Below the pieces are notes generated by a model, which was not told where the DNA came from, did not search any database, and worked only from the letters and a program-made list of their open reading frames with translations. This document shows, piece by piece, positions 14,515-63,026 of a stretch of 64,000 nt of DNA (its first letter is position 1; each line of letters opens with the position of its first letter). The translations under genes and the position numbers were made by a program. Source of the DNA: Tieghemostelium lacteum (Eukaryota > Evosea > Eumycetozoa > Dictyosteliales > Raperosteliaceae); the NCBI GenBank assembly GCA_001606155.1, contig LODT01000011.1, positions 124,001 through 188,000 of the forward strand, written 5' to 3'.

Positions 14515-17500
14515 ATGTTAGATAAAGAACTTTTAAAACGGGAATTTTATCTTAGAGTGTACCAATATCCCAATGTAATACCTCATCCAACACTAGAGAG
14601 ATGCGAAGCTTGTGGTGAGGCTGTCAATGTATCATGTTGTTCCTATGGATATAGAATACTATTATACTATCTAGATTCACTCACTATTGAAGATCAACAA
14701 ACTGTACTTGAAATATTCAATGAATGGTATCAAGCAACACCAGAATATAGATCAGAACTTATACAAAAGTATAATGTACCTGACAAGAATACAGGTTATC
14801 AGGGTTTTAGATTTCCAATTACACCTGAATATGAGATACATAGAGAAATTCTACCTAATACCTTACCATACCAAATCAAAAGATATCTACAACATTGTGT
14901 TATTAATAAGTCAATAATATACTATAGTATGTATCATGCTATTTAATTTTCAAAATAACAATATATTCTAATAGTATAAACTCTAGAATTTAAAGATGGT
15001 ATACATTCTAATGATATTATACAAAGAATGGTATACTATTATTGTATATTATTATCATCAAGTAAAGCAGATTTTAGAAAAGCTGCAATCAGTCTTTTTG
15101 ATGATGAATTAGTATTACAAAATTTAAATAGTCTGGGAATTAGAATTAGATTAATAACAAAAGAAACTTTAAAAAATGTAAATAATTATTTATAAATTAA
15201 AAAAATTAATTAGTAGTTCTAATTACTCAATTTTCTATATAAACAGGTAATTGAAAAGTTATTTACAGATAAATATATTCATTTGTTACCTTACTACCAA
15301 GATGCATTAACATCATTTAACAACAAATTAACCTATCCTATATCTACATTGGCATCACATATCAATAGAAAATATCTTCTATTGTTAAAAGATGAGGTAT
15401 CTACATATTTGGTAAATTTAATATGTGATACCTATATTCCTTCAAAATCCACTATAGAATTGGATTTTCAAGCATTAAAAGATGTTATACTATTTTGTTT
15501 CCAAAGATCACCATTTGTATGTAATATCATCTAATTATAATAATTAATAGTTTTTGACTAATTAGTCAATTAATTTTTAGGATACAAAATATGAAGAAAA
15601 GAAATCAAATATTTTAAACTTGTATAAGAAGTTTAAAATTGAATTTAGAGAATTTATTGGTTCATTCTTTTTGGAAAATTTTGAATCCACCAGTAGCAGT
15701 GATTTAAGAGATATTTGTATTGGTATTCTATTGTACAGAGAGAGATGTAAACTCCATTTTAAAATCGATTATGTAAAAATTGAAAATTTTATTATAGAGT
15801 ACCTTTGTAATGTACGTGTACCATTCTCAGTAACACACGAGCTTGTTAACCAAATTGTAGATCCATTCCCCTATTTTAGTAAAATCTACACTAACATCTA
15901 CTCTAAAACCAAATCAAGTATGCTCTTGTACATTTTATTCAACAAATTATCTTTAGAAAATTTTAAAAAGGTAATGATTCTTAGATGAATTTTATAATAA
16001 TTTTAATATTAATATTAATTTTAAATTAATATTACAGGTTGAATTTGAAGAGATAGAATGTGATGTAAATCTATATTTTGTTGCAATTTATCTAAAATAC
16101 TATGGTGTTGGTCATAGTAAAACAAAGAAATATCTAAAATTAATACGTGATAGTAATACAAAGGTATTTCCAGCACTATTTTGTCAATCTGATTTGAATA
16201 TGTATAATGGTATCAATACTCAATGTATAGAATACATTGATAGTACTATGGGATATAGAGGTCTTTTTAAATCATTTTCTGATATTGGTGCTAAAAGTTA
16301 TTTTAGATCTATTAGTGTGTATCTAAAAGATAAAATAGCTCATGTATACTCAGAGAACTTGAAAAAGTTACCCAAGAAATCAGAGGCATTTATCAAGAAG
16401 TATGGTGATATGATGGTATGGTACATGATGTCACCTGAGAATACATTATTCTCCAATGAACTATTTCAAGTACTCTTTCAAAGTGTTCATCATGCAAAGT
16501 TTCTAATAGAGAATCTGCAAAAAGACACCAGAGAAATGATCATTGCTAAACTAAAAGCATCCAAGTCATCTCCTAAAAGAAGCATTACCTTGAATTTGGC
16601 TTGGGTGTTGAAAGATTATTATGCACCAAAAGAAATTGAAAAAATTCTTTCATTGACTCTAGAGAGCTTTGATATTGCTTTTCATGATATAAATGTTTTA
16701 AAGTTATTCCCTACTTTGGATTGTGCTGCTGGATATACGTTGATAAGTAGCCTCTATTCAAATGCCTCCATTTCAAGTTTATTTGATCTATATGATAAAA
16801 AAGATGAACCATTGTCATCGGATTTCTATAAGATGGCAGAGATTTGTTTGATGCTTAATGTAACATCAATGACACACCGTTATAATGGGCAAAGAATCAT
16901 GAACCTAATTCAGTTAGGGTTTAATGATATCAACAATATCTATAAGGATGTTGAAATCACTACAGAAGAGCAAATTAGTCATCTTAATAGTAGCATTCTA
17001 GTTGGTTCCAGAAGGTATCTGTTGAAATCTAAACTCTTTAAAGAGTTCTATTTTGGATTACCATCACGCACCAAACAACTCATTAGAAAAATATCAAGTT
17101 CTGATATACCCTATATTTTGGAATTGGAAGAACAAGAGGCTAAAGGTTTAACTGGTGTAACTAATGGTCAGACTCAAATAGATTTACCTCTACTTCCTAA
17201 TAGAATCTATGAACACATTATCCATATGGTCTACTATGATAATACTGTTCATCCTGTATTTAAGATTCAATTGGCAACAGTTTCTAGATTATTCTTTAAT
17301 CTTGCTTCGAAAGTACTGACTGAAAATTACCATGAAGATTATTTAGTGGGATACATTACCATTCAGGACATGAGTAAGATCAACATCGATCATCCATTTT
17401 GTCTATTGAAAAAACATTGTAAATTTATTTCCTTTTCTGATCTAAAAGAGATACCAATGGAAGAAGCATACGAACTCTTTTATAATCAACTAGAATCGTT

Positions 17501-18293
17501 CCAAATCAATTTATCAATGTACAATTTTTTCATTGTTGATAGACCAACTAAAATCAAGTACATTGAAATTCTAGTTTCAAGTGATAATCTTGAATTGAAA
17601 TCATTTATCACTCTATTCAAACAATCTCCACTATTGGAGAGAATAGATTTCTGTATAACTGTCAGTTGGAGAAAATTCCAAGCATTCATGGTGTCTCTAC
17701 TACAGATGGAGTTACCAAATGTCAAAGTTATCAATCTCTATCTTAACCATAACGTAATTATCAGTGATGGTTTCCAATTGAATGATATCTTGTCTTCTGT
17801 TGGTCCTCTAAAGAGACCACTACCAAAATTCAATATCTCATCAGTACCTAGTTTCATCAAGTTTAATGGACCTGTGGATAAGGTAAATATAAAATTTTAC
17901 AACTTTGATTTGGATAGAATGAAGTTATTCTATCCACCAATTTTCCAAGAGATTCCATTCAAGTTCATCAAATTGTCAATGGAAAACATTCAACATGCAC
18001 TACACATGATTGATTTCATTGATGATTATACCAATATAAAAAAAATTGAATTGAGATTCTTCCAATTCTCAAAAATGACAGTGGAGAATGTACAGTTACT
18101 ATTCACCAAAATATCAGAAAACAAAAACATTAAATCATTTTCAACCTACTGTAATATCTATCTACTCTCTCCAGCCTATCCTCTTTTAGATGAAGAGAGT
18201 TGGAAATTCATTAATATGAAAGATTTCAAAACTATAGATTCAAATATTCATTTCCATCGTTTTGATAAATCCAAAGATAGTTGGGTTCAATAA
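14515..18293 (+). CDS. Large Cys-motif/helical/F-box/LRR family protein, copy 1 (1172 aa)
   Basis: Five exons by splice and phase: 14515-14926, 14987-15177, 15247-15516, 15581-15970 and 16038-18293. The first intron is phase 1, the rest phase 0. Order of parts: REFYLRVYQYP; a Cys motif CEACG...SCC (about 30-45) that could hold a metal; a helix with IFNEWYQATPEYR; about 600 residues of alpha-helical, solenoid-like sequence; an F-box-like segment at about 720 (LPNRIYEHIIHMVYY ... IQLATVSRLFFNLA); then leucine-rich-type repeats (FKQSPLLERIDF, LPNVKVINLYL) to the end. I recognise no named family. It is convergent with its paralogue, 87 bp between the two coding ends. Further copies lie at 55002 and 59486. 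An SCF receptor role is possible; the N-terminal module has no known function. Confidence 0.75.
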
Positions 18294-18380
18294 TTGTACA
18301 TCCTTCCATCACATTTATGGGAAAGTTATTATTAGTAATAATTCTCTTTAAATTTAGATGCTAGACAAACAAATTTCATT

Positions 18381-21300
18381 TTATTCATCCTTTCTTATAA
18401 AATTAATAAATCTATTGTCTGATATTGATTGAAAATTACCTAAATCTACCATATTCCATTTATCCATTGCATTAAACCATATTGGTAAAACAGGGTCATC
18501 TAGACTATCTTTAAATGGTGAATAGGAGAGTGAAAAACTCTTTAGATATGGCATACTACTGATTTTTTGGAAAATTAATTTTAGTTGATTTTCATTTATA
18601 TCAACTGTATCTTGATAATCAATTTTTGTAATTTTGAAACCCAAATGACTTAATGTCAGGGTCTCTGTTAATAATAGAATTGGGATGAGATAGGTTACAT
18701 CCATAATCTTAATTTCTAGTGATTTCAAATCCTTAACTGTTTCAGGTCGAGAAAACTGTAATTTAAAGAATTCATACAATTCTACATGTGTTGGATGAGA
18801 TTGGTGTAATTTTACCATACATTGATCAACACCAGAGAACGCATTAAATTGTTTTACCAATAATGTAATCCAAGGGAATTTGAGTTCACTACCATTTTGA
18901 GATTGGTGTCTGTCTATAACCCTTAATTTAATCTTATCAATATACATCTGTATAAAATCAATCTCCAAAGCATTAATTGTCAGATATTGAAGATTTGGTA
19001 ATTGTAAATTGAGGATATCAAATGTTATGTCCTCCCAATTGGATGATGCAACAAATGATATTCTTTCCAACAATGGAGAATGTAGAAAGAGATCTAAATA
19101 ATTTCCAAATTTACTGTCATCCATCGAAATGGACTGTATATTAGTGTTCTTTAGGATTGGATAACAATCACTACTTGTAATGAGACATTCCAAATTTTCA
19201 TAGAAAGCCTTATCAAAATCATCAATTGGCACATACTGGAAATCATCAAAATTCATTAACTTTGGCCAAGACTTAATTAGACAGAATTCATTGTGTGGTC
19301 GAACATATTCAAATCCATAAATTGGTATACAAAGTTTGGGTAAGTCTACACTAACACCATAGCTCCACATCATTGGTACTATACTGGAACAAAGTTCAAA
19401 AAATACTTTTGAAATTGTGGACAATGACAATTTAAATTGTGAATTTATAAAATTGTCCTGATAGATATATACCAATATCTTTTTAAATAGAATATTTGGT
19501 AATACTATTTGGCAATTATTATTACTATCACTACTCTTTTGCTGTTGTTTTTTTTGCTGATACTCAATCATTTCTAATTGAAAAGTAACTTGATTTTGAA
19601 TGAGTCTAATTCTAATTTCTTTTGGAATGTTGAAATAGAATTTCTTGAATTCCTCAGAGTGATAATAGAATTCAGGGTTAAATTGTTGAAAAAGGTCCTC
19701 TAGATTGATAATGTGAGATGATGTCATTAAATCCAAATTGGAGAGTGGTGACTCATAGGTAAGTTTCAGTGACTCTATAAATGTCTGAAGTGGTTGATAT
19801 TCATAATGTATTCTCTGTCTGACTGCCATTTCAATGAATTTCAAAGTCCATGGATGTTTAGAAGGATTCTTCAAATAGGATTTATAGAGCATACTCACAA
19901 AGTGAAAATCTTCATAGTATTCAATGAATGCCTTGAAACCAACTTCACCATATTCCAAAAGTCTACCAACTTTGTTAAACAGTTCAACTAGATTTTCAGA
20001 TATTGGTGTATTATAAGGATGTTTAGATAGATAGTAGAGGATGGTAATGGGTTCTAGATTTCTATATTTTCCATAGACAGTCAATACCTCAACCCATGCA
20101 TGAGAAGATAGATTCTGATAAGCAGGTTCATACTGTGACATCATTTCTATTAATATTTCTCTAGATTTTTCTGATAAACCCTCTAGTATAGCTTCACCAA
20201 CTTTTTGAATTCTAAATATATTATTTAGAATCTGAAACTTTTCAAAATCTATTTTTGAAACTCTAATCTTATTCGACCATTTATAGAAATATGAGAATAT
20301 CTGTTCACTATGTCCTTTTAGAATCTCTATACACTCTGTCTGATCTTGATCATTTTGGCAAAATACCAAATATGTCAATAAAGCATCAGAATAGAAATCA
20401 AATATTATCTGAAAGAATAGTTGGTAAATTGGTTTTGTACTATCCATTAAATGAGTTTTTTCAAACTCTATTATCAATTTTAAATGATCCAATCCAGAGA
20501 ATTCATCTCTTCTAAAGAAACTAACCATAACTTCTTTTAGAATGTGTCTATTTTCAATCTTTTTGGATATTTCATCAAAGTAATCCAATAAATTTGCATT
20601 CGGGTCTTGTTTTTTCAATCTCTCAATAGAAATTGAATATAAATAGATATTTGGTTCTCTAATCAAAATATCTTCATAATATTTAATTTGATCCTATAAT
20701 TATAGAAATTTGTTAATTATTTGTTATTCTAAAAATAATAAATTTAATACATACTTTTGAAAGAGTTATATTGTTTTTTAACATTTGATGAAATAGTTTA
20801 TAGATTGAATAAAATTTTTCTCTATGAAATATATAAGATGATTTAATTAAATCATTATAATATGGTTCAATATTATTAAAATGTTTAATCAAAATGTAGT
20901 ATCTATAAAAATTATCTTTTTGGCCAATGTTAATTATTACCTGACTTATAAATCTATATATATTGTTAGAATAATTCATAATTATTTGTATAAAATAAGA
21001 TAAATAACTTACTCTTGGTAATCACATTGTGAATTTACATCTATATTACAATTTAATGTTAAATAATTGATAATACCAATACAATTGTCAATTCTATTGG
21101 TATCTTTAATATTGGATTTTAAATAATTTATAGAAAACTCTATAAATTGTTCCTTAAAATGATTATGAAAATCATTTAAAATCTTTAATGCTAGATTTTC
21201 ACTTTTAAAATAATAATAAACCTTATATATGGATATTAGTATATTTTCCAATATATTATCAAAGTAATTACACATACATATTTATAATAACAAAATGGAA

Positions 21301-22312
21301 TGATATCATAATAATCTTGAATATTATGTAATTTAAATTGATCAATTGTACAATTTTTATCTAATAATGGGTCAACATTATCTAGAAATGATTGGTAACC
21401 ACTTAAACTAGATATTAATTTACCAAATAGTAATGGATCAATTGATAATATTGGAGACTCTAAAAACACTAGTCCAATAATAGATTCATTGATATTTTGT
21501 AAAATATTATTTTCATTTTCACATATTCTATTTATAATCTGTTTTATTTTAACAATATTAGTAATCATAATAATATTTATATTAAAAGGTGGACAATACA
21601 TACATTTACAAATAAATCTTTAGAATATTTAATATCTTTTTGTTTTGGTAAAGATTCAAAATATTTAAACATTTCTACAAATGTTTGAGTATCGTCTATA
21701 ATCTTAAGTAGTACATGTTCATATCTGCTAGGTGAATCGTTAACAAATATAATAATTTGATAATATATTAATCTTTGAATTAAACTATTTGAATTTATCC
21801 AGTTACTACATTCTAAATAAATTCAATAATTAATATTTATAATTGAATGTGGATTTTATAATTTTATAGTTTAACCTACGAGATCTTATAAAAACATTAT
21901 CTATAACAACATCTTTAATGAATGCAATCAATTGGGTTGGTATTAATTTATTGGTTTCAGGTTCAGGATCTTTAACTGTGCTCTGAAAAATCTCGTTATC
22001 AGGTGGAAGGTTAACATAATTGTATCCTAATCCATCTATAGGTATACTGTATTCTTCAATTAGTGACTGTCTCTCTTTATCACTGGCACCACTCCATTCT
22101 TTAAATATTTCAAATGTAGTTTGTAGTTCTTGTGGGTTATAATATTTAACTAACTGCATGAGTACTCTCTTTTCTTTGTTGCATTTACATTTTAAATTGA
22201 AACTCATTCCACAATATACACAAACTTTATTTCTAGTAGGTGGTGGTAACTGATATATTCTAATATAAAACTCTCTGTAGAGCCTTTGTTTATATATATT
22301 ATTATTTTTCAT
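18381..22312 (-). CDS. Large Cys-motif/helical/F-box/LRR family protein, copy 2 (about 1204 aa)
   Basis: Six exons fit: 22312-21880, 21812-21604, 21538-21278, 21221-21013, 20944-20755 and 20693-18381. The first intron is phase 1 and falls at the same place as in the paralogue at 14515. Parts: YREFYIRIYQLPP; Cys motif CVYCG...CKC; EIFKEWSGASDKER; SNSLIQRLIYYQ (matches SNDIIQRMVYYY of copy 1); helical region; F-box-like LPNILFKKILVYIYQ ... LSLSTISKVFFELC; and an LRR-type tail with FLHSPLLERISF. It has one more intron than copy 1 in the helical part. It is head to head with the M28-like gene (63 bp between start codons) and tail to tail with copy 1. The small exons were placed from splice sites, so their edges are less sure than the last exon. 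Confidence 0.73.
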
Positions 22313-22375
22313 TGTGGATCTATTTTTTAAAAATAAAATTTTTTTTTTTGAAATTTAGTGTTTGCAGTTCGCATA

Positions 22376-24312
22376 ATGAACAGTAGGTTTATCATTTTAG
22401 TGATTTTATTCATTTCAGTATTTTCATTATCTAGATATATAAATGAATACAATATAAAACACTACGAAAAATCTGAACTATTTGAAGTTGATATACAGAA
22501 TGTTTTAGGACATGTCAGAAAACTGATTGATATCGGTAATAGCAATGAAGTATTTGAAGACTCTAGAATAACAGCAAGAGAATATATTAGAGACTACCTA
22601 TTTAACAACAGTATACCTAAAGAAAATGTAATCTACAACCGTTTTGAATGGTCAGACAGAAAAGCAGATGGAAAATTAATAACTACAACTACATGGACAG
22701 GTATCAACATCATTGCTTGGACAAACTCCACACCAGTTGATGACCAACGTATTCGTGTTATTGGTGCACATTATGATACTCTACACTGGGGTATTAACAA
22801 AACATCTGGTGCACACGGAAATCTAGCTGCAGTAGGTATGATGATGGAGACTATCATTGAAATCTACAAATATCAACAACAAAGCTCTGAATCCAATCAA
22901 ACACCTTACATGTTTGTTTTCTTTGATCAAACTGAACCTGGATCACTAGGAAGCAAATCTTTTGTAGACTATCACCAAATTGCAAAAAATCCAAAAAAAT
23001 TTGCATATTATATCGATTTGAATGCCATCGGATATAAAGATAGTTTAGGTGCAATTATTCAAACTTATCCATATGAACATAAACAACAGACATTGTTCTC
23101 ACCAGTTTGGTTAGTAAATCAAATGGTTCAAAGTGGATATCAGGTAACTGAACAAGGTATCCAAGTTGGTTATGCTCATATACCTGGATCACTAATCTAT
23201 CAAGCTCACAGATACCATTTGCATTCTATACCCTATCTCTCAGATGACGGTCCTTTTACATGGTCTGGTGTTGATTCTCTTCTATTAACAGATTTAGATG
23301 TATTCTATAGTACCAATCCAGATCATCGTCAGATTTCAGATCAAATTCAGAACCTTGATCCAGATCAACTAAAAATGGTATCAGACATGTTGATTAACTT
23401 TTTAGTATCAACCAACTCTGAAGAATCTATTCAACCCAATAGCAATACCATAGAACTCTCTAAAATCTCCAACTCTACTCTAATGAGATTCCTATTACAC
23501 CAATTTGAAAATCTATTTGACCTTTTATTCCCAGCTCGTAAACAATATCTCTTTATAGGTCCAATTGCACTTCACTATTTTGAACTTTTATCAATATCTT
23601 ATTTACTCATAACTATAATGTAAATATCTATCTACCCCCACCACAAAAACTATAAAAACTAATTTAATTTAATTTAATTTCTAGATATTATTATTCATTT
23701 ATAAAGTATAGAGATATAAATACATCTATTCAAAATGCCCTGGAATCCAAGAGTAAAAGTAAATTTGATGATGATTTGTTAAATTATCAGAAGAAACATA
23801 ACAGAGGTGAAGGTAACATGGGATCAAATGGCAGTCTAAACAGCGATGAAGTAACAAGTGACACCTATTTGGCAGATGAAAGTGATAATACACCATCATC
23901 AGCTATCAAAAATGGTAACTCTAATATCAAAATTCCATTTTTTGTAGGAATTAATGGACACAGAATATTATTCTTCCATTTGTTCTTATTGACTATGACA
24001 GCATTAGTTGATACTGTTTATACATTTGAACTATTAGCTATATCATTTTTAGGAATGTTTGCAATTACCTATGAGAAAATGAATGTTAATGTATTCTTGG
24101 GTATTATATCATCAGTTTTATCTATAAGTTTTGTGTATCAAGATATTCAACAAATTAGTACACTAGGTAGAAAAGGTCCTAATTCATACCAAAGATCCAT
24201 TTCCATTCTATTATTGGTTTATATCTTACATTCACTTTTAATTGCATTCTATGGACACCATTATTCTAAAAAGAGAGAATATCAATTATCATTAAAAGCT
24301 AAAAAAGATTAA
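22376..24312 (+). CDS. M28-peptidase-like multi-pass membrane protein, probably inactive
   Basis: Exons 22376-23619 and 23685-24312 (phase 2 intron) give about 623 residues. The start is ATG 22376; an earlier open stretch has no ATG. An N-terminal signal anchor (about 5-25) leads to a lumenal M28 fold. Metal and catalytic positions are mostly changed: His132-Tyr-Asp is kept, but the D-N block reads AHGN (146-149), the Glu-Glu pair reads Gln185-Thr-Glu187 in FFDQTEPGSLGS, and the last His is Asp in SDDGPF (289-294). A hydrophobic segment follows near 400, then about four more in exon 2. The layout recalls ER proteins with M28 folds (ERMP1-like), some of which are non-catalytic like nicastrin. 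The ending KKREYQLSLKAKKD is basic. A binding or scaffold role is inferred. Tail to tail with the DHHC gene (47-bp gap). Confidence 0.75.
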
Positions 24313-24359
24313 GATAAAATTGAAAATTTTAAATTACCAACTACCATCATTCTTTTTTA

Positions 24360-25556
24360 TTATAATAAACGAACTGAGATTAATGGCGAAGTTTCTGATT
24401 GTGTAGTATGGAATACTAAGCCCGATAAAGGAGTTAGAGGTAACTGAATTGGTAAAAACCAAATCCAAGGTGATTCTCCAAATACTGATTTAAAATTATG
24501 AGTATAGTTAATATTGTATTTGTTTCTTGGTCGATAAGATGCAGAAGATGAACTTTCAGTATCTCCTTGCCTATACAATCTCTTTGCAGAAGGATGAGTT
24601 GATTTTGGACTGTTTTTTTCAAAATGTTCTATAGTAGTTTCGTTATAGAACACATATCTAAGATGTGATATAGTAAATGCTGCTAAACCAATACCAAATA
24701 CCAAAGCTATTATAAAAATGACACCTAACAATATACTAGGTGCCATTTGCATTCTAGGATCCAATAGATTCTTAAAATTACCAATAGTTGTAACCATGAT
24801 ATAAAAACATAATACTGTTGCCCATCCTAGAAACAATATAAAATATTTATAATTAAAAAAACCTATACAATTATTCACAAATGGGCTAAATGTGAGGAAA
24901 TATTAGTTTAACTACCTATATATTATTGATATTAACTAAACATTAAAACCTACCAATGGTGATCCATTTTTAAAATACATCTTTTACATTTTGAACAGTG
25001 ATGTGTTCTATCTGGTTTATATGAATTACATTTAACACATTTTCTAGCTTCACCTAGTGAATTTGATTCATAACATTGTAAATCATATTCTTTATATATT
25101 GGCTATTGGTTTTTGTTGCGTTAGATTTATGAGAATAAGATGAAATATTACAGGTGATCAACTTACAGCATCTGGAAATCCTTTTGGTATTGAACCAGGA
25201 TCTGTAAAAGTTGTTTTAAATAAACTAATTTGAGTTACTATGAAAATAAAATGAAACACAGATAATATTACAATAGGTCCTACATATTGAGACTCTTTAA
25301 ACATGACATCTATAAAATAAAACACATAGGGAATGTACCCAAAAAGGAAGAGAAACTCTAGAAATATAACTGAAAATAGACCTATAGTCAACCTGCTCTT
25401 CCAATATGGTTGTCTATATTTACTAAAACTATCATGTAAACTATTGTGTTTTTGGCCATTCTGTTCTTCCATTTCATTTTCATCTCTATTTTTTATCAGG
25501 TTATCAGGTTGATTGCTTTCGTTTGTATGATGTTGATAGTCCACCATATCATTCAT
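24360..25556 (-). CDS. DHHC palmitoyltransferase (zDHHC type, about 354 aa)
   Basis: Exons 25556-25167, 25102-24954 and 24885-24360. The central exon was placed from splice sites and holds the zinc part of the domain: [20 protein letters not shown], then LKMDHH. The active Cys codon is split by the last intron (TG|C), giving [12 protein letters not shown] when joined. Enzymes of this family transfer palmitate from their own Cys to protein Cys residues on Golgi, ER or plasma membranes. Membrane segments lie on both sides: two before the domain ([20 protein letters not shown], and [19 protein letters not shown]) and two after it ([34 protein letters not shown]), the usual four. The Trp of the canonical DHHCPW is Phe here. 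The N-terminus is acidic and hydrophilic. Substrates cannot be told. Confidence 0.88.
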
Positions 25557-44541: not shown

Positions 44542-44923
44542 TTATCTATTATGATAGAAAATTTGTTGATTAGATATACTGTTCTTAAATAAGGATATCA
44601 GCCTCTTTATATTATCTGTTTCGAGATATTCTGTAAGCTGATCGATTGCATTGGAGTCTTTTACATTTAACCCTCTTTCAGACATAGACTTTTTTACCTT
44701 TTCAATTTCTTCTTCACATTCTTGAGTTGATATATCTTGTTCATTTTCAGATAAATCTAATGTGGATAAGTTTTTTTGTCATTTATTTGTATAATCCCAT
44801 CTTTTAACCCCAACTTGATAAATTTATAGTTTTATATCTTTTTACCTCTATAAATTCTTTAATTATCTTTGAAAAACTGGTGAGTTTATCTTGAGCTATT
44901 TTCTTTGGTTTATTTAAAAGCAT
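44542..44923 (-). CDS. Possible small coiled-coil protein
   Basis: Exon 2 (44756-44542) reads LSENEQDISTQECEEEIEKV, KKSMSERGLNVKDSN, AIDQLTEYLETDNIKRLISL then stop; this is charged, helical and not AT-driven. A first exon may start at ATG 44923 (MLLNKPKKIAQDKLTSFSKI) with donor GTAAAAAG near 44845, but the phase does not match the obvious acceptor TTAG at 44757, so the join is unsettled. Only 44 bp separate this ATG from the ATG of the gene at 44968. Family unknown. Confidence 0.42.
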
Positions 44924-44967
44924 TTGAAAAAAGTTTTTTTTTTAAATTATTTGATCAATACTACACA

Positions 44968-46623
44968 ATGTCCACTAGTATTCCTCTCCCAAATATAATA
45001 ATAACAAAGATTTTACAATACATTCTTAATCATACAAAAACAAAACATCCAGATAAAGAACCAGCACAGTTGAATATTGATTTTATAAAACAATACTTCT
45101 TTATCTGTAAACTGTGGTCAAATGAAATTTTAAAAAAGACAATATCATACAAGAAGATTTCTATCTATTCGAATGATTATTTTGATAAATATTTTAGATT
45201 ATATAAAATAGGGTTTCACAATATCAAATTAATATCAGTATTTGATCAAACAGAACCATCATTTGAAGAATCAATTGAATCTCTCACTATCCTTCTACAC
45301 AGATTTGTAAAGACGAGATATTATAAAACTCCATTGGAATTTAACTATAAAGATCAAATTTACCAATTCAGACCTAAATATGTTACATTTACAATGGACA
45401 ATTATCTCAAAGATTTAAAAAATCATCAAGTTAATCTGTATGAGAGATTTCCAGAGTTACAAACTCTCTCGATTGCTAATAGTACAGCAGAGATAATAGA
45501 GAATCCAGAAACTCAGTTATATAATATCAGTAAACTCTCTCAAGTCCCAGAGAGTCTCTATATGTTTGGTTTTGGTAGTGCTATCAATCAACAACTTACA
45601 GGAATGGAAGTAATGAAAAGTTGGAATGGTATTTTAAAAAGACTAAAGATCACAGGATTTTCAGTTTTGAGTTTAAAGGATATCGGTGTGAACATTAAAC
45701 ATTGTCACAGCCTGACAAGACTGACATTGGAAATCAAAGTGAATGAAGATAACCAGAATGTTAATATGGCATTTGATATATTCTCTCAATTACCTAATCT
45801 CTATAAACTAAAATATGTACCATACACAGAATCTAATGCATCAATTAGTAAATTCAATCAGTTTATATATGACCATTCTAATATATATTCAATTAGGTTA
45901 GTGGGTTTAAATTTGATTGATGACGGAACACAGATTGTTTATGGACATTCCGTTGATCATAAACAATCACTAAAGAAACTTAAACTACTGAATATGGAAA
46001 TCCCAATTGAAAACTATGACACCAAAATAATATTTGAAAGTCTTGATTACATTTCATTACTCGATAGTGAAATGACAACAACAATACCAAAAGTAAATAT
46101 GAGGATGAATAATGTAAAAACATATCTTCGACCATACTCTGATGATCAACTCCAAAACATGGTTTTAGATAATCCATTTAATTGGTCGCTTCAGAGTTTA
46201 GAATTACAAGGTAGATTCAATAGTGGAGTACTTGATATACTTCAAAGAAATATACCAACTTTGAAAATATTAAAACTTTCAATTTTTCAAATTACCTCTG
46301 AGCATTATGACGATTTCATTGATGCTTTGGCTGTTAATAACCAAATTACTGAATTTGACATACAAGTTATGTTTACTGAAATTAGTTTAGATTTTTCCAT
46401 TAGATTGATGGAAATAATCTTAATGAAACCTCATCTCACATCATTATCAATACATTTCAAAGTAAACATTAAAGGTGAATATTCAAATGATACTGAAAAT
46501 AGAATTTGTGAAATACTCAAATCACATCCTAATCTACATTATTATTCAATATCTTGTATATATTCAAATACAAATAGATTTGATAAAATTCAATCACAAA
46601 TTAAATTATTACATTTAGATTAA
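44968..46623 (+). CDS. F-box-like / LRR-type protein, short form (551 aa)
   Basis: The start is ATG 44968 (MSTSIPLPNIIITKILQYIL); the open frame extends upstream but has no ATG. The N-terminus is a good F-box-like motif: LPNIIITKILQYIL followed by FIKQYFFICKLWSNEILKK. About 450 residues of leucine-rich-type repeats follow (SLTRLTLEIK, LPNLYKLKY, SLKKLKLLNMEI, SLQSLELQG, TLKILKLSIFQ, HLTSLSIHF, NLHYYSI). It is the same build as the genes at 7132 and 12681, with little direct identity, so these are old paralogues. An SCF substrate-receptor role is inferred from architecture. It is a single exon, with no signals for secretion. Confidence 0.75.
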   Translation: MSTSIPLPNIIITKILQYILNHTKTKHPDKEPAQLNIDFIKQYFFICKLWSNEILKKTISYKKISIYSNDYFDKYFRLYKIGFHNIKLISVFDQTEPSFEESIESLTILLHRFVKTRYYKTPLEFNYKDQIYQFRPKYVTFTMDNYLKDLKNHQVNLYERFPELQTLSIANSTAEIIENPETQLYNISKLSQVPESLYMFGFGSAINQQLTGMEVMKSWNGILKRLKITGFSVLSLKDIGVNIKHCHSLTRLTLEIKVNEDNQNVNMAFDIFSQLPNLYKLKYVPYTESNASISKFNQFIYDHSNIYSIRLVGLNLIDDGTQIVYGHSVDHKQSLKKLKLLNMEIPIENYDTKIIFESLDYISLLDSEMTTTIPKVNMRMNNVKTYLRPYSDDQLQNMVLDNPFNWSLQSLELQGRFNSGVLDILQRNIPTLKILKLSIFQITSEHYDDFIDALAVNNQITEFDIQVMFTEISLDFSIRLMEIILMKPHLTSLSIHFKVNIKGEYSNDTENRICEILKSHPNLHYYSISCIYSNTNRFDKIQSQIKLLHLD

Positions 46624-47611: not shown

Positions 47612-47639
47612 GGCAGTCTTTTTGGATATTGGATAATCC

Positions 47640-48175: not shown

Positions 48176-48183
48176 ATTTTTTT

Positions 48184-53383: not shown

Positions 53384-53998
53384 TTTATAGTAAACGAATC
53401 TGTTATATTTTTAAATATACACAGATTATTTTAAAAATACAGAATTGAAATAAACTAAAGAAAAAATTTTTAAAAATTTTTAAAAAAGTGGGTTTAGTGG
53501 TTTTTTATAAAAAACAAATCAAAAATGCCAATCCATTCATTTAATTTAACTCATTTGGTATAAATAATATTTTCTAAATTAATTTTTATTTATATTGTGA
53601 TCATTTTAAAAATAATTAAAAATTAAAAATAGATTTTGTTAAAAATATTAAATTTCATTCCCATAAATGCAACAAATAGTATTTAGATATTTTTTTTTCG
53701 TTTTTATGTCTTTTACAATTTACTACATTTTCTCATTAACACAGCTAATATGTAAACTGGATTCGTCTTATGAAGTTTTTACGGGAAAAGTGAGATAGAG
53801 AAATGAGACATTCATTACCAAGCAATTTATTCTGATTAGGTAGTAGATTGTATGAATTGTTGCAACATTTCATTCTAACAATAAATTTAATATAAAATCA
53901 AAGAAATACAATATTTAAATATTTATTATTTGAAATTCAAATAAAGTGCGTTATTATTTGTTTTATTAAAAATACATTATTCGTGTGTGTTATTTTAT
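53384..53998. other. Spacer, no gene seen
   Basis: AT-rich DNA between the LIM gene start and the secreted-protein stop, with T-runs near 53690 and A/T runs near 53460. No frame or repeat is supported. Confidence 0.45.
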
Positions 53999-54907
53999 TT
54001 AATAATAGTAATGTGTAATGTTATAGATGGAATCAGGTGGTCTATTGATTGCACTTTTAAGTCCACTATCTCTACGTGTTCTACCAGCAACAGCTTTGAA
54101 AACTGGACCACTTTTATCTTCGTCACATTGTAGACATGGATTGAGAGTTGTTGAATTTGCAGGAACATTATTAGGAACATGCATTAACCAATCATAGAGA
54201 CAAATATCTAGACAATCTTTTCTGGTGTTAAGTGCATCATAGAGCCAAATGACTGCACAATTATATGTGAATCCAGCAGAATGTTGAATGCAATCCAAAG
54301 CATCTTTCTCAGAGACAAATGTAACAATAGCACAATCTCTTATTGGATTTGTTAGATCTGGATATTGCATATAGGATGACAAGTCTTTAGTAGTACTACA
54401 GTATCCACACTGGTGAAGATGAGTTACAAATGCACCTGAATTCTCAGCTTCTTCAGCAGATGTATAATTGAATAAATAGTATGATGATCTATCCGAAGGA
54501 TCAGGATAATATACACCACAAACTGAATCATTCAAAGTAGTATTGAAATTCTCTAAATCATATGGATTCCAAGTTAGGTTTTGTTGGGGGTTTAAAAGAG
54601 TCTTTGATGCAAATGCATCAATCACAGTTTGATTATAGGTTGGTGGAACAAAACCTTCTCTACTACCACTACCATCAACCAATCTTTCTCTAATACGTTT
54701 GAGAGCACCTCTTAATAACTCTTCTACAACCAACTTTTCATTGTGATTGAATCTATTCATCAGAAATTCATCGTCTAGATATGAGTCAATCTTTTCTATA
54801 AATTCTCTTTTATTAGATAATCTATTAACATTATCTAAACCTAAACTTATAGTTGCTAATACTAAAAGCACAGTAAACACTGACCAATAGTATCTAACCA
54901 TTTTCAC
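53999..54907 (-). CDS. Secreted Cys-rich protein of unknown function (302 aa)
   Basis: A single exon from ATG 54907 (or the second ATG two codons on). Signal peptide VRYYWSVFTVLLVLATISLG, then a helical region with LVVEELLRGALKRIRERLVD, several NxT/S sequons, and Cys clusters (HLHQCGYCSTTKDLSSYMQY, DCAIVTFVSEKDALDCIQ, KDCLDICLYDWLMHV, NPCLQCDEDKSGPVFKAVAG). The HQCG-CS and DC spacing suggests disulfides. I have a sense of similar proteins in oomycetes and algae but cannot name the family. The N-terminal half has a broken second copy at 59067-59390, part of the segmental duplication. Extracellular location is inferred. Confidence 0.75.
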   Translation of the reverse strand: MKMVRYYWSVFTVLLVLATISLGLDNVNRLSNKREFIEKIDSYLDDEFLMNRFNHNEKLVVEELLRGALKRIRERLVDGSGSREGFVPPTYNQTVIDAFASKTLLNPQQNLTWNPYDLENFNTTLNDSVCGVYYPDPSDRSSYYLFNYTSAEEAENSGAFVTHLHQCGYCSTTKDLSSYMQYPDLTNPIRDCAIVTFVSEKDALDCIQHSAGFTYNCAVIWLYDALNTRKDCLDICLYDWLMHVPNNVPANSTTLNPCLQCDEDKSGPVFKAVAGRTRRDSGLKSAINRPPDSIYNITHYYY

Positions 54908-55001
54908 AAAGAATTTTAAAATTTTAAAAATTTTAACATATCTTGGATACCATCAAAACCGGTTTTTTGATGAGAAAATTTATGATGATTTAGATTTAAG
55001 T

Positions 55002-58000
55002 TTATTTTAAAGTTTGATAAAATTTTGTATAAATTGTATTTGGGTATTTAAATTTACCAAGATTAATTGATTTCCAATCATTAGGAGATAAAATAGAGTA
55101 AGGAGATGGTGATTTTTCCAAATGTATACACATTGAAAATATATTGATATTAGTAACCTCATTCAATCTATTAAATATTGTTTGAATTTGGTCTATTGAA
55201 ATTTCTGTATTTGGAATTTGGCCTAATATAAGTGAAAGCGAATTGATGGGATGATGTTGATCTATAAATTCAATGAGAGGTATTATGTGTGTGATGTTTT
55301 TGATGGTAAAACTGATTGCATCTTTAACTGTTGATAAAGAATCTTTATAGAATTCAATCATATTAGGTATATTGACATCTGTAGTTCTGATTCCAACTGT
55401 ATTGAACCCTGAAAAACTAATATATTCAAAAACTGATAATATATTAAATTTAGGAAGTTTTTCAAACTTGTTTTTCAAGTTATTCAAATATATACCAATG
55501 TGAGATCTCACATTATAACAAAAGTAGAAATTGATTTCTTTGAGATTGGGTAGCTGGAGTGATAGAATGGATTCAATAGTGCTATATAAATGTAACCATT
55601 TATTGTGAACTATAAATTCAATGGATTCAATTAGAGGTGAATATTTGAGTACTCCATCGAATATCAGTGGTTCCTTTACAGGCCAATAGAGAGTCACTAT
55701 TATAGTCTTTAGTTGAGTATTTCTTTCCAAAAAAAACAATCCTTTATAATTTTCCTTTAATGAAATATTTAGACACTCTAAATGACCATACAATAGATTA
55801 TCTATTACATTCCAAGGAAGAGATATCAGAGTCTCTGAATTGATATTCTTGGGATAATTCTTCCAAAGACTATATTTATATTCAATATTGATTTTTGAAT
55901 ATCTACAAATTGGTGTATAACTTCTATATCTTTCATCTACATTATTGGTTAATATATCAGAACATAGGTAAAACCATTGTTTAGAAACTTTAGAAATTTC
56001 AACTTTCTCCAAGCCATGAATAGTAGGATCATAAAAGAAATGGTGAATGATTCTCTTTATCATCAACATTGGCAGTTGTATATTTCTTACTATAGGATCA
56101 TTAGAGTAATGGTGAATGATTTTCGGTTGTGTATTTCTACCTATATTTTTGTTTAGGTATTTGTGTTTCTCTAAATGGAGGAGATAACCTAGCTTTGTAT
56201 TCAACAGTCTATCAGTAGCTATTAGTGGTAGGGTAAAGTAGAATTGCTTGAATAGGTCAGAGCTTTTACAGAATGTAGTATTTAAAGGTTTTTCAATGAA
56301 AAAAGGTTTTTCAATGAAAAATAGTTTTGTCAAACCATTTGGTTTTTCATTTTCATAGAGTTTGGTTATGTCATTGTAGTATTTAGATATCAAATAGGTT
56401 TTATCTTCTGTCTGTTGGGTAATGTTTAGAAATAACCAAAATTCCATGAACTTATACACCTGATCTGGAATTGACTGTTTATTAACCACAGTAATCTGAC
56501 CATCACTACAGCTATAATACCTTTCAATTGCATTCGAAATGAGTCGATGATAATTTTCAATGTTAGACAACATCATATTTAATCCCATTTGACCCCATTT
56601 TGAGAAATCAGTAATGATATTAACCAATACCTCCAAACCCAGATCATCAACATTGTATATTACATCTCTCTCTACATCTTCATATCTATTCATAACTAGA
56701 TATAAGTTGGATTTTGAAGCTTGAGATGCCCCATTTAAATCTATTTTTAAATATGATCTAAATAGTGAAATTGCATTTTCAAAATCACCTTCCAAAAGTG
56801 CATTTGGAGCATGTTGATTTCCAAATAAATCCTCTACAATCATATGGTTGTAGAATTGTGAACCTTTGTATATTGAAACTATCAACTTTGAATTATTTCT
56901 GATCATTTCAATTATTAGGTTCCTAATGGCAGGTTTAGTCATTTTAGAAAAAGTATTAAAGAATATACTCCATAAACGAGTCAGAGATTGTAAGAGATTG
57001 AATACACCATCTACTTGGCTATTAATACCAATGATTATTCTTGAATAGTCAACTAATATTTCAAGGTCATCTAGTATTGATATATCACTTGTAAAGGAAT
57101 AGGTCGAACTTAAATAATCGAGTCGAGGAGTGATTTCTTGTATCGCCTCTGCATGGTCTAGCATTTTAAATAGTGTGATAATACCTATATAACTTAAATC
57201 AGATCCCATATAACGTCTATATTTCTGTATAATCTCATTAGTTACCATTTCTTTTGGAATTACCCAAAAGAAATAATGTCGAGGAATAATATCTTTATGG
57301 TAAAGTTTCTCTAGTTCAATTAGGCCATTTTCATCTAATTGTTTATAAAATGTATAACAATAACTAAAATGTGTCTTATGTGAATTAAAAATAAGACTAA
57401 ATAAAATGATATGTAGATATTAATATTAAAATACTATTATGTTATATCTAAAAATTATATACCTATTAATTTTAGTAGCCATTTCATTTGTAAATTTAAA
57501 ATTAAACAGTTTGTTGTGTAATAGTATATTTAGACGATCTTTTGCTGGATATGAATCATCAATTACTATACCTTGAAGATATTCTGAAAATTTGTCACCA
57601 AAATTCTCATAGAACCAAACAATTAAATCTAGTTCTTTCTGAGGATATTAAAATATAAGTTAGATATTGAACTGGTTATAGATGGTAACTGAATACATAC
57701 AATTATTTGTATTATTAAATTTTTATAAAATTCAATTGGTTTTTGGGTATCTATTTTCAAGGTTTTCACTTGACACTTAATTTCTGAAACTACACATCTA
57801 GTTAACATCTTGATATCTAGATTGATTAATTTGACCAATAATTCTATTGGATATTCAAAATCATTATCAATCATATCAAATAAAAGATTATAATCTATCA
57901 ACACTAATGTATTTCTGTTTTTTTCATTAACAATTCTCTCCAGAACCTTCAAAACAGATGACTTTGGTAGATGGTAAACCATGAAAACTAACGGTTTAAT

Positions 58001-58546
58001 TTTTCTTCCAAACATTTGAAATAATATTAAATCCTCAGTCATCTTTTCAAATACTCTAATATGATACTCTTTTAAAGCCTCTGATTTTGATCTCAACACA
58101 AATATATAACTAATCAATCTCTGTCTAGGATTCTCAGAATCTATCCATTGTGTAAACTCTAAATATTTAAAATTTCATTAGCTTTCAAATCTTTACAATT
58201 AGAAGTGTTGTTCCTACATACTATTATAATATAGACTTCCAAGCAAATGTTCAACTAGTACAAGAGAAACATATAAATGGTTCCTTTTTCTTTTTTTTTT
58301 GTCATTGTAGTGTTGTTTATTTATGATATCAACTTCTTCATCAGATTTGGAGCACCAATCAAAGAAAGTAATTATTAAATTATTAAAATCTGTTGAATTT
58401 AAATCAGCAATACTATATATATTTGCTACACAATAATGTTCTTTTTTAACTTTACAAAATAAACAATGCCTATTAATAAACAATTTTGTTGTTAAATTCC
58501 CAAAGTATTGTTGAAAATAGTTGATTTCTTTTTTTTCTTCTTTCAT
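55002..58546 (-). CDS. Large Cys-motif/helical/F-box/LRR family protein, copy 3 (about 1117 aa)
   Basis: Exons 58546-58222, 58158-57701, 57638-57463 and 57396-55002; intron phases 1, 0 and 2. Parts: INYFQQYFGNLT, Cys motif CLFCKVKKEHYC, FFDWCSKSDEEVDIINKQHY, RQRLISYIFVL (aligned with IQRLIYY of copy 2), helical region, F-box-like LPMLMIKRIIHHFFY ... VEISKVSKQWFYLC, LRR-type tail with LKYSPLLESIEF. Intron 1 has the same phase and position as in the genes at 14515 and 18381. It carries two small internal repeats: FFIEKPFFIEKP and a partial F-box duplicate (KIIHHYSNDPIVRN). It is nearly identical to copy 4 at 59486. SCF adaptor role inferred only. Confidence 0.75.
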
Positions 58547-58813
58547 TTAATCAGGAATGATCACTCGTCAAAAAAAAAAAAATTCTGAATTTCAAAATAA
58601 TCTTTAATTTCTTTTGTGATTATGTTACAAAACAGCAAAGTCATTGAAAATCTTTTAACATACCCTTTAAACTGTGCACTCCACAAAGAAATCATCAAAC
58701 ATTCAACAAAATTTTCAAACCATTACCAACATCTAAAGGATTAAATTGTTTACACTTTAGTACCTCTTACTTTTTAAAAATTAGTACTGAATTAATTCAA
58801 ATTATTATTGATA
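58547..58813. other. Spacer present only in one duplication unit
   Basis: About 270 bp with no counterpart after copy 4 (there, homology resumes within 30 bp of 63026). The plus strand from 58624 is open for 40 codons (MLQNSKVIENLLTYPLNCAL...), too short to call. It may be an insertion or sequence lost from the other unit. Confidence 0.4.
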
Positions 58814-59066
58814 TGGATTATAAAACAAAAAAAGTTTGTGAAGTTACTTTTCAAGTAATAAATTGGTTAAATGATATATTTAGTCTTTCTATTATTTCTA
58901 ATATAGTATTTATTACCACTGATAATCTTAGAAAGTTCACTTATAAACTCTGAAATTGATTCTCGTTCATCAAGTGAACATGAAAAGTGAATTTGTTGAA
59001 TTTTATCATTGTTAATAATGGACTTTGTCAATTTCGATAAATTGAAATCATATACTTTTTGACATG
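58814..59066 (-). pseudogene. Truncated fragment of the LRR-type gene at 63104
   Basis: It matches 63040-63470 with one internal deletion of about 150 bp (63151-63305 is missing), in frame, so a 70-codon frame persists (CQKVYDFNLSKLTKS, IQQIHFSCSLDERESIS, then GNKYYIRNNRKTKYII). The 5' part is absent: at about 59066 it changes abruptly to the fragment of the secreted-protein gene. It is debris at the junction of two duplication units. Confidence 0.8.
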
Positions 59067-59390
59067 TAATATACACCACAAACTAAATCATTCAAAGTAG
59101 TATTGAAATTCTCTAAATCATATGGATTCCAAGTTAAGTTTTGTTAGGGGTTTAAAAGTGTCTTGGATGCAAATGCATCAATCACAGTTTGATTATACGT
59201 TGGTGGAACAAAACCTTCATCATCAACCAATCTTTCTCTAATACGTTTGAGAGCACCTCTCAATAACTCTTCTACAACCAACTTTTCATTGTGATTGAAT
59301 CTATTCATCAGAAATTCATCGTTTAGATATGAATCAATCTTTTCTATAAATTCTCTTTTATTAGATAACCATTTTTCACAATGATTTTTA
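59067..59390 (-). pseudogene. Broken N-terminal copy of the secreted Cys-rich gene (53999)
   Basis: It corresponds to about 54510-54830 of the intact gene: NRFNHNEKLVVEELLRGALK, the RIRERLVDD region (with a short deletion of the GSGSRE part), a stop codon at the PQQN position, then through NDLVCGVYY to the junction. The signal peptide part upstream is disrupted as well. It is clearly a non-functional remnant. Its right side leads into the intergenic 59391-59485 and copy 4. Confidence 0.85.
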
Positions 59391-59485
59391 AAATTTTAAA
59401 ATATCTTGGATACCATCTGCAAAAACCGCGTTTTTCTAATCAATTTTAGAATATTTATGGATCTAAATCCATCATAAATTTTAGT

Positions 59486-62400
59486 TTATTTTAAAGTTTG
59501 ATAAAATTTTGTATAAATTGTATTTGGGTATTTAAATTTACCAAGATTAATTGATTTCCAATCATTAGGAGATAAAATAGAGTAAGGAGATGGTGATTTC
59601 TCCAATTGTATACACATTGAAAATATATTGATATTGGTAACCTCATTCAATCTATTAAATATTGTTTGAATTTGGTCTATTGAAATTTCTATATTTGGAA
59701 TTTGGCCTAATATAAGTGAAAGTGAATTGATGGGATGGTGTTGATCTATAAATTCAATGAGAGGTATTATGTGAGTGATGGTATTGATGGTAAAACTGAT
59801 TGCATCTTTAACTGTTGATAAAGAATCTTTATAGAATTCAATCATTTTAGGTATATTGACATCTGTAGTTCTGATTCCAACTGTATTGAACCCTGAAAAA
59901 CTAATATATTCAAAAACTGATAATATATTAAATTTAGGAAGTTTTTCAAACTTGTTTTTCAAGTTATTCAAATGTATACCAATGGGATTTCTCAAATTAT
60001 AACAAAAGTAGAAATTGATATCTTTGAGATTGGGTAGCTGGAGTGATAGAATGGATTCAATAGTGCTATACAAATATAACCAGTTACTATGAACTATAAA
60101 TTCAATGGATTCAATTAGAGGTGAATGATTGAGTATTCCATCGAATATCAGTGGTTCCTCTACAGGGCTATAGAGAGTCACTATTAATGTCTTTAGTTGA
60201 GTATCTCTTTCCAAAAACCATCCATTATAATTTAATGAAATATTTAGACACTCTAAATGACCATACAATAGAATATCTATTAAATTCCAAGGAAGAGATT
60301 TCAGAGTCTCCCAATTGATACTCTTGGGATAATTCTTCCAAAGACTATATTTATATTCAATATTAATTTTTGAATATCTAAAAATTGGTATATAACTTCT
60401 ATTTCTTTCATCTACATTATTGGATAATATATCAGAACATAGGTGAAACCATTGTTTAGAAACTTTGGAAATTTCAACTTTTTCCAAATTATGAATAGTA
60501 GGATCATAAAAGAAATGGTGAATGATTCTCTTTATCATCAACATTGGCAGTTGTATATTTCTTACTATAGGATCATAAGAGAAATGGTGAATGATTTTCT
60601 TAATCATCGACATTGGTGGCTGTGTATTTCTTACTACATTACCATTATTTTTGTTTAGGTATTTGTGTTTCTCTAAATGGAGGAGATAACCTAGCTTTGT
60701 ATTCACCAGTCTATCAGTAGCTATTGGTGGTAGGGTAAAGTAGAATTGTTTGAATAGGTCAGAGCTTTTACAGAATTTGGCATTTAAAGGAGTTTCAATG
60801 AAAAATAGTTTTGTCAAACCATTTGGTTTTTCATTTTCATAGAGTTTGGTTATGTCATTGTAGTATTTAGATATCAAATAGATTTTATCTTCTGTCTGTT
60901 GGGTAATGTTTAGAAATAACCAAAATTCCATGAACTTATACACCTGATCTGGAATTGACTGTTTATTAACCACAGCAATCTGACCATCACTACAACTATA
61001 ATACCTTTCAATTGCATTCGTAATGAGTTGATAATTTTCAATGTTAGACAACATCATATTTAATCCCGTTTGACCCCATTCCGAGAAATCAGTAATGATA
61101 TTAACCAATACCGCCAAATAGAGTTTACCAACTCTGAATATTACATCTCTCTCTACATCTTCATATCTATTCATAACTAGATATAAGTTAGATTTTGAAG
61201 CTGGAGATGCGCTATATAAATCTATTTTTAAATATGATCTAAATAGTGAAATTGCATTTTCAAAATCACCTTCCAAAAGTGCATTTGGAACCTGTTGATT
61301 TCCAAATAAAGCCTGGTGGTAGGATTGTGAACCTTTGTATATTGAAACTATCAACTTTGAATTCTTTCTGATCATATCAATTACTAGGTTTATAATGGCA
61401 GGTTTAGTCATTTTAGAAAGAGTATTAAAGAATATACTCCATAAACGAGTCAGAGATTGTAAGAGATTGAATAAACCATCTATTTGGCTATTAATACCAA
61501 TGATTAATCTTGAATAGTCAAGTAATAGGTCAAGGTCATCTAGTATTGTTATTATATCACTTTTAAAAGAGTGGTTCCAACTTATAAGGTCGAGTTGAGA
61601 AGTGAAAATTTGCATAGCCTCTGCACGGTCTAGTATTTTAAATAGTATGATAATCTTTATCATATCGAGATTATTTGAATAACTTGACATAGAATCCCTA
61701 TAATTCTGTCTAATCTCATTAGTTACCATTTCTTTTGGAATTGCTAAAAAGAAATAATATTTATCTTTATGGAATAGTTTCTCTAATTCAATAAAGCCAT
61801 TCTCATCTAATTGTTTATAAAATGTATAACAAAAAGCATAACTTGTCTGACTTGAATTAAAAATAAGACTAAATAAAATTATATGTAGATATTAATATTA
61901 AAACTATAACATAAAGTTATATCTAAAGATTATATACCTATTAATTTTAGTAGCCATTTCATTTTTAAATTTAAAATTAAACAGTTTGGTGTGTAATAGT
62001 ATATTTAGACGATCACTTGTTGGATATGTATCATCAATTACTATACCTTCAAGAAATTTTGAAAATTTGTCACCAAATATCTCATAGAACCAAACAATTA
62101 AATCTAGTTCTTTCTGAGGATATTAAAATATAAGTTAGATATTGAACTGGTTATAGATTGTAACTGAATACATACAATTATTTGTATTATTAAATTTTTA
62201 TAAAATTCAATAGGTTTTTGGGTGTCTATTTTCAAGGTTTTCACTTGATCTCTAATTACAGTAACTAGAAGTGTAGTTAACATATTGATATCTAGATTGA
62301 TTAATTTGATCAATAGTTCTATTGGATAATCGAAATCATTATCAATCATATTAAATAAATGTTGATAATCTATCAACTCTAGTATTTTTCTGTTTTTTTC

Positions 62401-63026
62401 ATTAGCAATTCTCTCTAGAACCTTCAAAACAGTTGCCTTTGGTAGATGGTAACTTCGGTTATCTTTAGTTTTCATTTCTCTTCTAAATATTTGAAATAAT
62501 ATTAAATCCTCAGTCATCTTTTCAAATACTCTAATATGATACCCTTTTAAAGCCTCTGATTTTGATCCTAATACAAAAATATAACTAATCAATCTCTGTC
62601 TAGGACTCTTAGAATCTATCCATTGTGTAAACTCTAAATATTAAAATTTCATTAACTTTCTAATCTTTACAATAATAGAAGGGTGTTGTTCCTGAACATA
62701 CTATTATAATAGAGACTTCCAAACAAATGTTGAATGAGTACATGAGTAACATATAAATGGTTCCTTTTCTTTTTTGTATTGTCATTGTAGTGCTGTTTAT
62801 TTATGATATCAACTTCTTCATCAGATTTGGAGCACCAATCAAAGAAAGTAGCTATTAAATTATTAAACTCTGTTGAATTTAAACTATCAATACTTTCTAT
62901 CTCTTTTGGACAATAATGTACTTCATTATCTCCACAATATAAACAATACCTATCAATATACAATTCTGTTGTTAAATTCCCAAAGTATTGTTGAAAATAG
63001 TTGATTTCTTTTTTTTCTTCTTTCAT
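59486..63026 (-). CDS. Large Cys-motif/helical/F-box/LRR family protein, copy 4 (about 1113 aa)
   Basis: Exons 63026-62702, 62633-62176, 62113-61938 and 61868-59486, the same lengths for exons 1-3 and the same phases as copy 3. Parts: INYFQQYFGNLTTEL, Cys motif CLYCGDNEVHYC, FFDWCSKSDEEVD, helical region, then a tandem duplicate inside the F-box-like segment: PPMSMIKKIIHHFSYDPIVR followed by LPMLMIKRIIHHFFYDPTIH and VEISKVSKQWFHLC. An LRR-type tail with LNHSPLLESIEF follows. Differences from copy 3 are mainly single substitutions plus codon-sized indels, so both copies look under selection and recently separated. Upstream is the partial LRR-type gene at 63104. Confidence 0.75.

Follow-up and report, generated by a model that had tools for sequence, protein, structure and literature searches.

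Four related Tieghemostelium lacteum genes that may encode divergent F-box/LRR proteins with a long helical N-terminal extension

We examined a stretch of 64,000 nucleotides, hereafter the window, from the dictyostelid Tieghemostelium lacteum (assembly GCA_001606155.1, contig LODT01000011.1, positions 124,001-188,000 of the forward strand). The window is AT-rich (G+C 22-36% per 2-kb windows) and its introns are short, with GT..AG borders. Four of its genes, which we call A to D, were modelled with splice-aware methods as follows, in window coordinates:

14515..18293, + strand: gene A, 5 exons (14515-14926, 14987-15177, 15247-15516, 15581-15970, 16038-18293), 1172 aa; acceptor of intron 1 placed by hand
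18381..22312, - strand: gene B, 6 exons (22312-21880, 21812-21610, 21538-21278, 21221-21013, 20953-20755, 20693-18381), 1205 aa; exons between 20755 and 21278 placed manually on the basis of reading frames and splice sites
55002..58546, - strand: gene C, 4 exons (58546-58222, 58158-57701, 57638-57463, 57396-55002), 1117 aa
59486..63026, - strand: gene D, 4 exons (63026-62702, 62633-62176, 62113-61938, 61868-59486), 1113 aa

A and B are convergent neighbours and C and D a tandem pair. All four genes are intact: every modelled intron is GT..AG and there are no internal stops in any frame. BLASTP comparison of the proteins gave 31.5% identity between A and B across 184 N-terminal residues (E 7e-22), 28-29% between A and either C or D across ∼490 C-terminal residues (E 7e-45 to 3e-44), 25% between B and D (E 5e-20) and 82% between C and D along their whole length; by these comparisons the four are one family. 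An initial annotation, made from the letters of the window, had described the genes at 14515, 18381, 55002 and 59486 as one family with one layout, and their coordinates, intactness and kinship are borne out here. Its count of four members holds in that all four are real genes, but because C and D are near-duplicates from a recent tandem duplication, only about three sequences can be counted as independent.

Intron positions also link the genes. In all four, intron 1 is of phase 1 and falls at column 154 of the family alignment, as the initial annotation had noted, and there is another shared intron, of phase 0, at columns 325-338. B, C and D have a phase-2 intron at columns 411-415, and A and B have phase-0 introns at columns 227 and 481-484. 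From this distribution, the family ancestor probably had five introns.

The N-terminal Cys motif described in the initial annotation is present in all four proteins in the form C-x2-C-x(5-7)-[CH]-x(0-1)-C, and was located by motif search and in an alignment of the exon-1 proteins:

14602..14640, + strand: Cys motif of A, CEACGEAVNVSCC, aa 30-42
22181..22222, - strand: Cys motif of B, CVYCGMSFNLKCKC, aa 31-44
58430..58465, - strand: Cys/His motif of C, CLFCKVKKEHYC, aa 28-39
62910..62945, - strand: Cys/His motif of D, CLYCGDNEVHYC, aa 28-39

Ten columns of the exon-1 alignment are invariant, and three of these are Cys. When the exon-1 proteins were shuffled, a slightly looser Cys pattern was matched by 35 (A), 0 (B), 32 (C) and 32 (D) of 20000 shuffles each. 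Downstream of the motif all four proteins carry F-x2-W-x3-[ST]-x(1-2)-E; the form given earlier, F-x2-W-x3-S/T-x2-E, is exact for B, C and D, but in A the final gap is 1, not 2. Each protein offers four candidate Cys/His ligands. An AlphaFold model from the four-sequence exon-1 alignment has five helices and a mean pLDDT (predicted local distance difference test) of 47.8, with residues 19-46, and thus the Cys loop, below 50. As the model leaves that loop without a defined shape, we treat the cluster as a putative metal-binding site.

Two thirds along each protein lies a segment with the pattern LP...VSK-x-[WF]F-x-L and a 6-residue loop between its first and second predicted helices, which is our candidate F-box:

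17193..17327, + strand: F-box-like segment of A, LPNRIYEHIIHMVYYDNTVHPVFKIQLATVSRLFFNLASKVL...; AlphaFold helices and profile scan, with no single-sequence match
19368..19502, - strand: F-box-like segment of B; profile scan of the family alignment, with no single-sequence match there
55941..56075, - strand: F-box-like segment of C; single-sequence match of 2.9 bits over 13 profile positions, and profile scan
60416..60550, - strand: F-box-like segment of D; single-sequence match at 13 profile positions scoring 4.2 bits, first among 23 proteins, and profile scan
60499..60636, - strand: tandem repeat of 69 bp, in frame, which gives D two copies of F-box-like helix 1, 88% identical

The segment starts at residue 807 of 1172 (A), 833 of 1205 (B), 761 of 1117 (C) and 760 of 1113 (D), that is 68-69% along. 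We compared a 48-position profile of ten canonical F-boxes with the whole 1347-column family alignment, and its top place was the segment that the initial annotation had predicted, starting from LPMLMIKR in D (score 22.3, E 0.014). Three of 600 column-shuffled alignments scored higher, at 131-134, from alignments of 6-16 columns confined to the tail end of the query (columns 1173-1190); all three came from the first set of 200 (next best 19.8), while the second set of 400 gave none (maximum 21.6). We took these three to be program artefacts; the other 597 reached at most 21.6. In a single-sequence search of 23 proteins (A-D and 19 open reading frames of the window), the first three ranks went to D (4.2 bits), the gene at 7315-9039 (3.2 bits) and C (2.9 bits), with the D and C matches falling at the predicted segment and spanning 13 of the 48 profile positions. 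For comparison, 531 of 1000 shuffled family sequences gave some match to the profile, the best of them at 4.0 bits. Nine of the 45 columns of the segment are invariant, a number equalled or exceeded by 2.2% of alignment windows. Taken together, the profile scan and three helices predicted at low confidence lend moderate support to an F-box, and we put the chance that the segment is one at somewhat better than even.

The segment and the regions on either side of it were modelled with AlphaFold from the last exon of A and its three relatives. The model is helical up to residue 430 (exon numbering), after which strands and helices alternate:

17496..18290, + strand: LRR-like beta/alpha tail of A; AlphaFold strands and helices, Foldseek matches to leucine-rich repeat (LRR) proteins

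Across residues 471-751 block means of pLDDT range from 33 to 81, with 51-81 at residues 471-570, 33-49 at 601-640 and 55-71 at 641-710. Among the best 50 of 847 Foldseek matches LRR proteins are frequent; chains of the mouse cytoplasmic lattice come first and NOD2, SKP2, CARMIL, NLRP3, tropomodulin and ribonuclease inhibitor are present, with unrelated folds such as 3-dehydroquinase mixed in. Because the geometry of these alignments is poor and the model is of low confidence, the matches to LRR proteins are indicative only. The tail motif of SPLLE(R/S)I type was found as previously described, as SPLLERI in A and B and SPLIESI in C and D. Of the two larger features proposed in the initial annotation, the LRR-type tail has beta/alpha repeats in the model but no Pfam LRR match in the pieces searched, and we regard an LRR-like tail as moderately supported; the long helical region has predicted helices, but these are low-confidence secondary structure for the last exon of A only.

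Sequence searches for relatives outside the window were negative. Pfam returned no family at its cut-off for the pieces of A-D searched, which were seven pieces without exons 1-3 of D and then the four isolated F-box-like segments, four N-terminal pieces and the A tail. NCBIfam, searched with each of the last exons and with exon 1 from A, B and D, gave no match. No relatives were found among viral and prokaryote contigs with the last-exon and exon-1 alignments, or among phages and plasmids with the last exon of D by TBLASTN; these collections do not consist of dictyostelid genomes and the results carry little weight. Sequence searches of the PDB gave no match for the last exon of A and chance-level values for the last exon of D (best E 0.95), the last-exon profile (0.061) and the exon-1 profile (0.32). 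Elf1 was considered as a relative of exon 1 and rejected, its best E in the PDB profile search (0.38) not being significant. Text searches of the literature, in which dictyostelid proteomes lay outside the search, found no account of such a family in the portions covered, including those of PMC10539598, PMC9485057, PMC5041008 and PMC12062965.

Judging from nucleotide alignment, C and D are the result of a recent tandem duplication of ∼4.5 kb, with these paired blocks:

54507..63460, no strand: tandem segmental duplication giving C and D
54895-58553 paired with 59366-63033: 89% nucleotide identity
54507-54820 paired with 59067-59368: 93%
58791-58915 paired with 63025-63152: 87%
58909-59064 paired with 63305-63460: 97%

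Across 1100 codons C and D have a dN of 0.087 and a dS of 0.085 (nonsynonymous and synonymous divergence; dN/dS 1.03). Divergence is about equal in coding sequence (261/3303 sites, 7.9%), introns (13/190, 6.8%) and two flanking stretches (19/213, 8.9%), and the amino acids thus change about as fast as neutral sequence. Neither copy has acquired a stop, although the simulations had to reject 12-24 stop-making changes per set on average, and all ten coding indels are multiples of three. The ratio of nonsynonymous to synonymous changes (N:S) is 217:53 overall (4.09), and by codons 32:3 (1-100), 99.7:18.3 (262-690), 14.5:8.5 (691-825), 26:4 (826-1000) and 4:5 (last 117). Codons 691-825, which contain an FKxFYF motif and the F-box-like segment, differ from the rest with a Fisher p of 0.024 (rounded counts). 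With the last 117 codons added p is 0.0013, these codons having been picked post hoc; the other rate windows, the F-box region apart, were likewise defined with the data in view. Neutral simulations gave mean N:S values of 2.75-4.01 (sd 0.4-0.6) across models; as 4.09 is near these means we make no claim of positive selection on C and D. A figure of 18% noncoding divergence and a list of noncoding indels were dropped, since they came mostly from 92 aligned flank columns that were 42% different. Of these flanks, the 5' one is not part of the main duplicated block, and the 3' one, which is, had been misaligned at its cut end (a full-length alignment differs at 8/98). The base frequencies of one simulation arm share this flaw; the flat-frequency arm is free of it.

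We noted several further features of the duplication. Coding identity is ∼88% near the 5' end and climbs to ∼95.5% over the 3' quarter (54895-58553 against 59366-63033), and because of this higher identity gene conversion may have acted later at the 3' end. The ∼240 bases immediately upstream of C (58554-58790) have no counterpart upstream of D, the match resuming at 58791-58915, so the two genes may have different promoters. A partial copy (59067-59368, - strand) of the gene at 53999-54952 (- strand) came along in the duplication and differs from it at 10/302 sites, less than C from D. The full gene starts with the signal-peptide-like MVRYYWSVFTVLLVLATISLG and has no Pfam match above cut-off.

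The reading we favour, and lean towards by a little, is that A-D are divergent F-box/LRR (FBXL-like) substrate receptors of Skp1-cullin-F-box (SCF) ubiquitin ligases, with a long helical N-terminal extension. In this reading the three-helix segment would attach each protein to Skp1, and through it to cullin-1 and Rbx1. Substrates to be ubiquitylated would be bound by the LRR-like tail, probably together with the helical region that precedes it. The Cys/His cluster near the N-terminus, C-x2-C...[CH]-x(0-1)-C, would be a small knuckle, stabilised by metal, with a structural or binding use. The uneven replacement between C and D fits a docking part under constraint beside recognition parts that change freely or adaptively: apart from the F-box region and the final ∼100 residues, the copies change at about the neutral rate, as if target surfaces diversified while the Skp1 side was kept. 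A bolder version, in which these are dictyostelid-specific SCF receptors with new Cys/His and helical repeat domains, the recognition parts of the duplicates being under diversifying selection with the Skp1 box held, and which serve intracellular recognition of microbes or other strains, we think improbable.

A number of results weigh against SCF receptors of this kind. Pfam found no F-box or LRR at E up to 10 in the searched pieces; it also gave no F-box match for the F-box/LRR-like genes at 7315, 12612 and 44884 of the window and is therefore insensitive for F-boxes here, which is why we used our own profile. Of the ten F-boxes in that profile, only SKP2 was confirmed against the PDB. The absolute profile score is weak (hhalign probability 3%), and the single-sequence search gave no match for A and none at the segment for B. 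In D, helix 1 is doubled, as PPMSMIKKIIHHFSYDPIVRNIQ and then LPMLMIKRIIHHFFYDPTIH (C retains a shortened first copy), which is unusual for a functional F-box. Structure prediction, which the initial annotation had put forward as a check, gives a last-exon model of A with helices at residues 388-399, 406-414 and 417-430, in F-box order, but pLDDT is below 50 there, as it is at the Cys loop. That model has a mean pLDDT of 50.8 and a predicted template-modelling score (pTM) of 0.31, and its Foldseek matches reach at best E 4.8e-4, with query TM scores of at most ∼0.25 and root-mean-square deviations mostly of 7 Å or more.

On these grounds (the lack of a Pfam F-box match, the low structural confidence at the segment, and A and B without a single-sequence match at it) the proteins could instead be LRR-tailed helical scaffolds or adaptors that are not SCF subunits, the segment being three helices that link the helical region to an LRR cap. 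We consider this rather unlikely, if a serious competitor, as the whole-length profile scan falls on the predicted segment with a score that 597 of 600 shuffles do not reach, and both conservation and constraint are stronger in the segment than around it. The tandem and clustered copies, a dN/dS of about 1 in recent duplicates with all frames open, and the presence of NOD2 and NLRP3 among the best 50 of 847 Foldseek matches would suit receptor-like self/non-self or anti-microbe factors, in which the helical region and LRRs act as a sensor of the NOD-like receptor (NLR) type and a ubiquitin ligase role is secondary or absent. A self/non-self role, also raised in the initial annotation, is compatible with the fast divergence of C and D and no more than that: one gene pair in one genome is at issue, and dN/dS cannot tell diversifying from relaxed selection. 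Moreover, the Walker A/P-loop pattern G-x4-GK[ST] occurs in none of the four proteins, Pfam NACHT or NB-ARC domains were not found in the searched pieces, and the Foldseek matches are probably driven by LRR similarity, so we hold an NLR-type sensor to be quite improbable. Relaxed selection could equally mean that the genes, C and D especially, are decaying or functionally relaxed duplicates with no current role, as a dN/dS of 1.03 across 1100 codons and the near-equality of coding, intron and flank divergence would allow. Given the open frames of both copies despite the many stops rejected in simulation, indels in multiples of three in 10/10 cases, and the age, intactness and shared layout of A and B, this seems very improbable.

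Three other likely F-box/LRR genes of ∼580 aa each lie in the same 64 kb, all on the + strand, at 7315-9039, 12612-14366 and 44884-46623; an LRR-type Pfam match was seen only in the last (E 7.7e-4, under the cut-off). When the C-terminal block of the family was compared with 19 window proteins by hhalign, 7315 ranked first (E 0.018) and 12612 second (E 0.034), the best of 19 reversed controls being at 0.086; 44884 (E 0.13) fell below that control and absolute scores were weak throughout. On our own reading, the 7315 match runs from F-box-like helices 2-3 onward. An hmmsearch of the window proteins with the C-terminal hidden Markov model did not separate real from reversed sequences, whereas hhalign separated them weakly. 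These three genes differ from A-D in having a single long open frame and no comparable N-terminal extension. The gene at 22352-23623 (+ strand), which begins near the 5' end of B on the opposite strand, encodes a Peptidase_M28 domain (E 5e-13) behind a start that resembles a signal peptide. Other gene types in the window include LIM-domain, Pex2/Pex12-like and AAA proteins.

Compared with known systems, A-D resemble FBXL-type proteins (SKP2, 7z8t_F/7b5l_T) in that an F-box-like segment, LP...I...VSK-x-[WF]F-x-L, precedes a beta/alpha LRR-like tail, and the Foldseek alignments with the four best SKP2 chains among the best 50 of 847 matches cover 261-318 columns. They differ in the ∼750-830 residues ahead of the F-box-like segment, a loop of 6 residues separating its helices 1 and 2 and the absence of a Pfam match, and similarity to SKP2 is very low, at 9-11% in the Foldseek alignments. 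For a second comparison, Dictyostelium FbxwD, we know of no long helical region. This protein has an F-box, a WD40 domain and, at its N-terminus, a RING-like module (PMC10539598), and an LP-AA version of it is among the strains listed in that paper. A-D would share with it the combination of an N-terminal Cys/His module, an F-box and repeats, but in FbxwD the repeats are WD40 rather than LRR and the module is RING-like rather than a four-ligand motif. In a study of Dictyostelium Skp1 interactors, F-box sequences vary widely, many occur with LRRs and most receptor domains are LRRs (PMC9485057). With those that have LRR/FNIP domains A-D would share a degenerate F-box and an LRR receptor domain, whereas in A-D the F-box-like segment stands at two thirds of the protein. 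The 6-residue loop of A-D has a precedent, since insertions separating the helices of the F-box were allowed for in these interactors by Boland et al. (PMC9485057). The statement in the initial annotation that the layout is not a standard class therefore goes too far, since a RING-like/F-box protein and divergent F-box/LRR proteins are both on record in Dictyostelium. A-D stand apart from the known Dictyostelium cases in their long predicted helical extension, in having a small Cys/His motif and in where the box-like segment lies, and if they are SCF substrate receptors they would illustrate how such receptors can be so variable in protists that family models overlook them.

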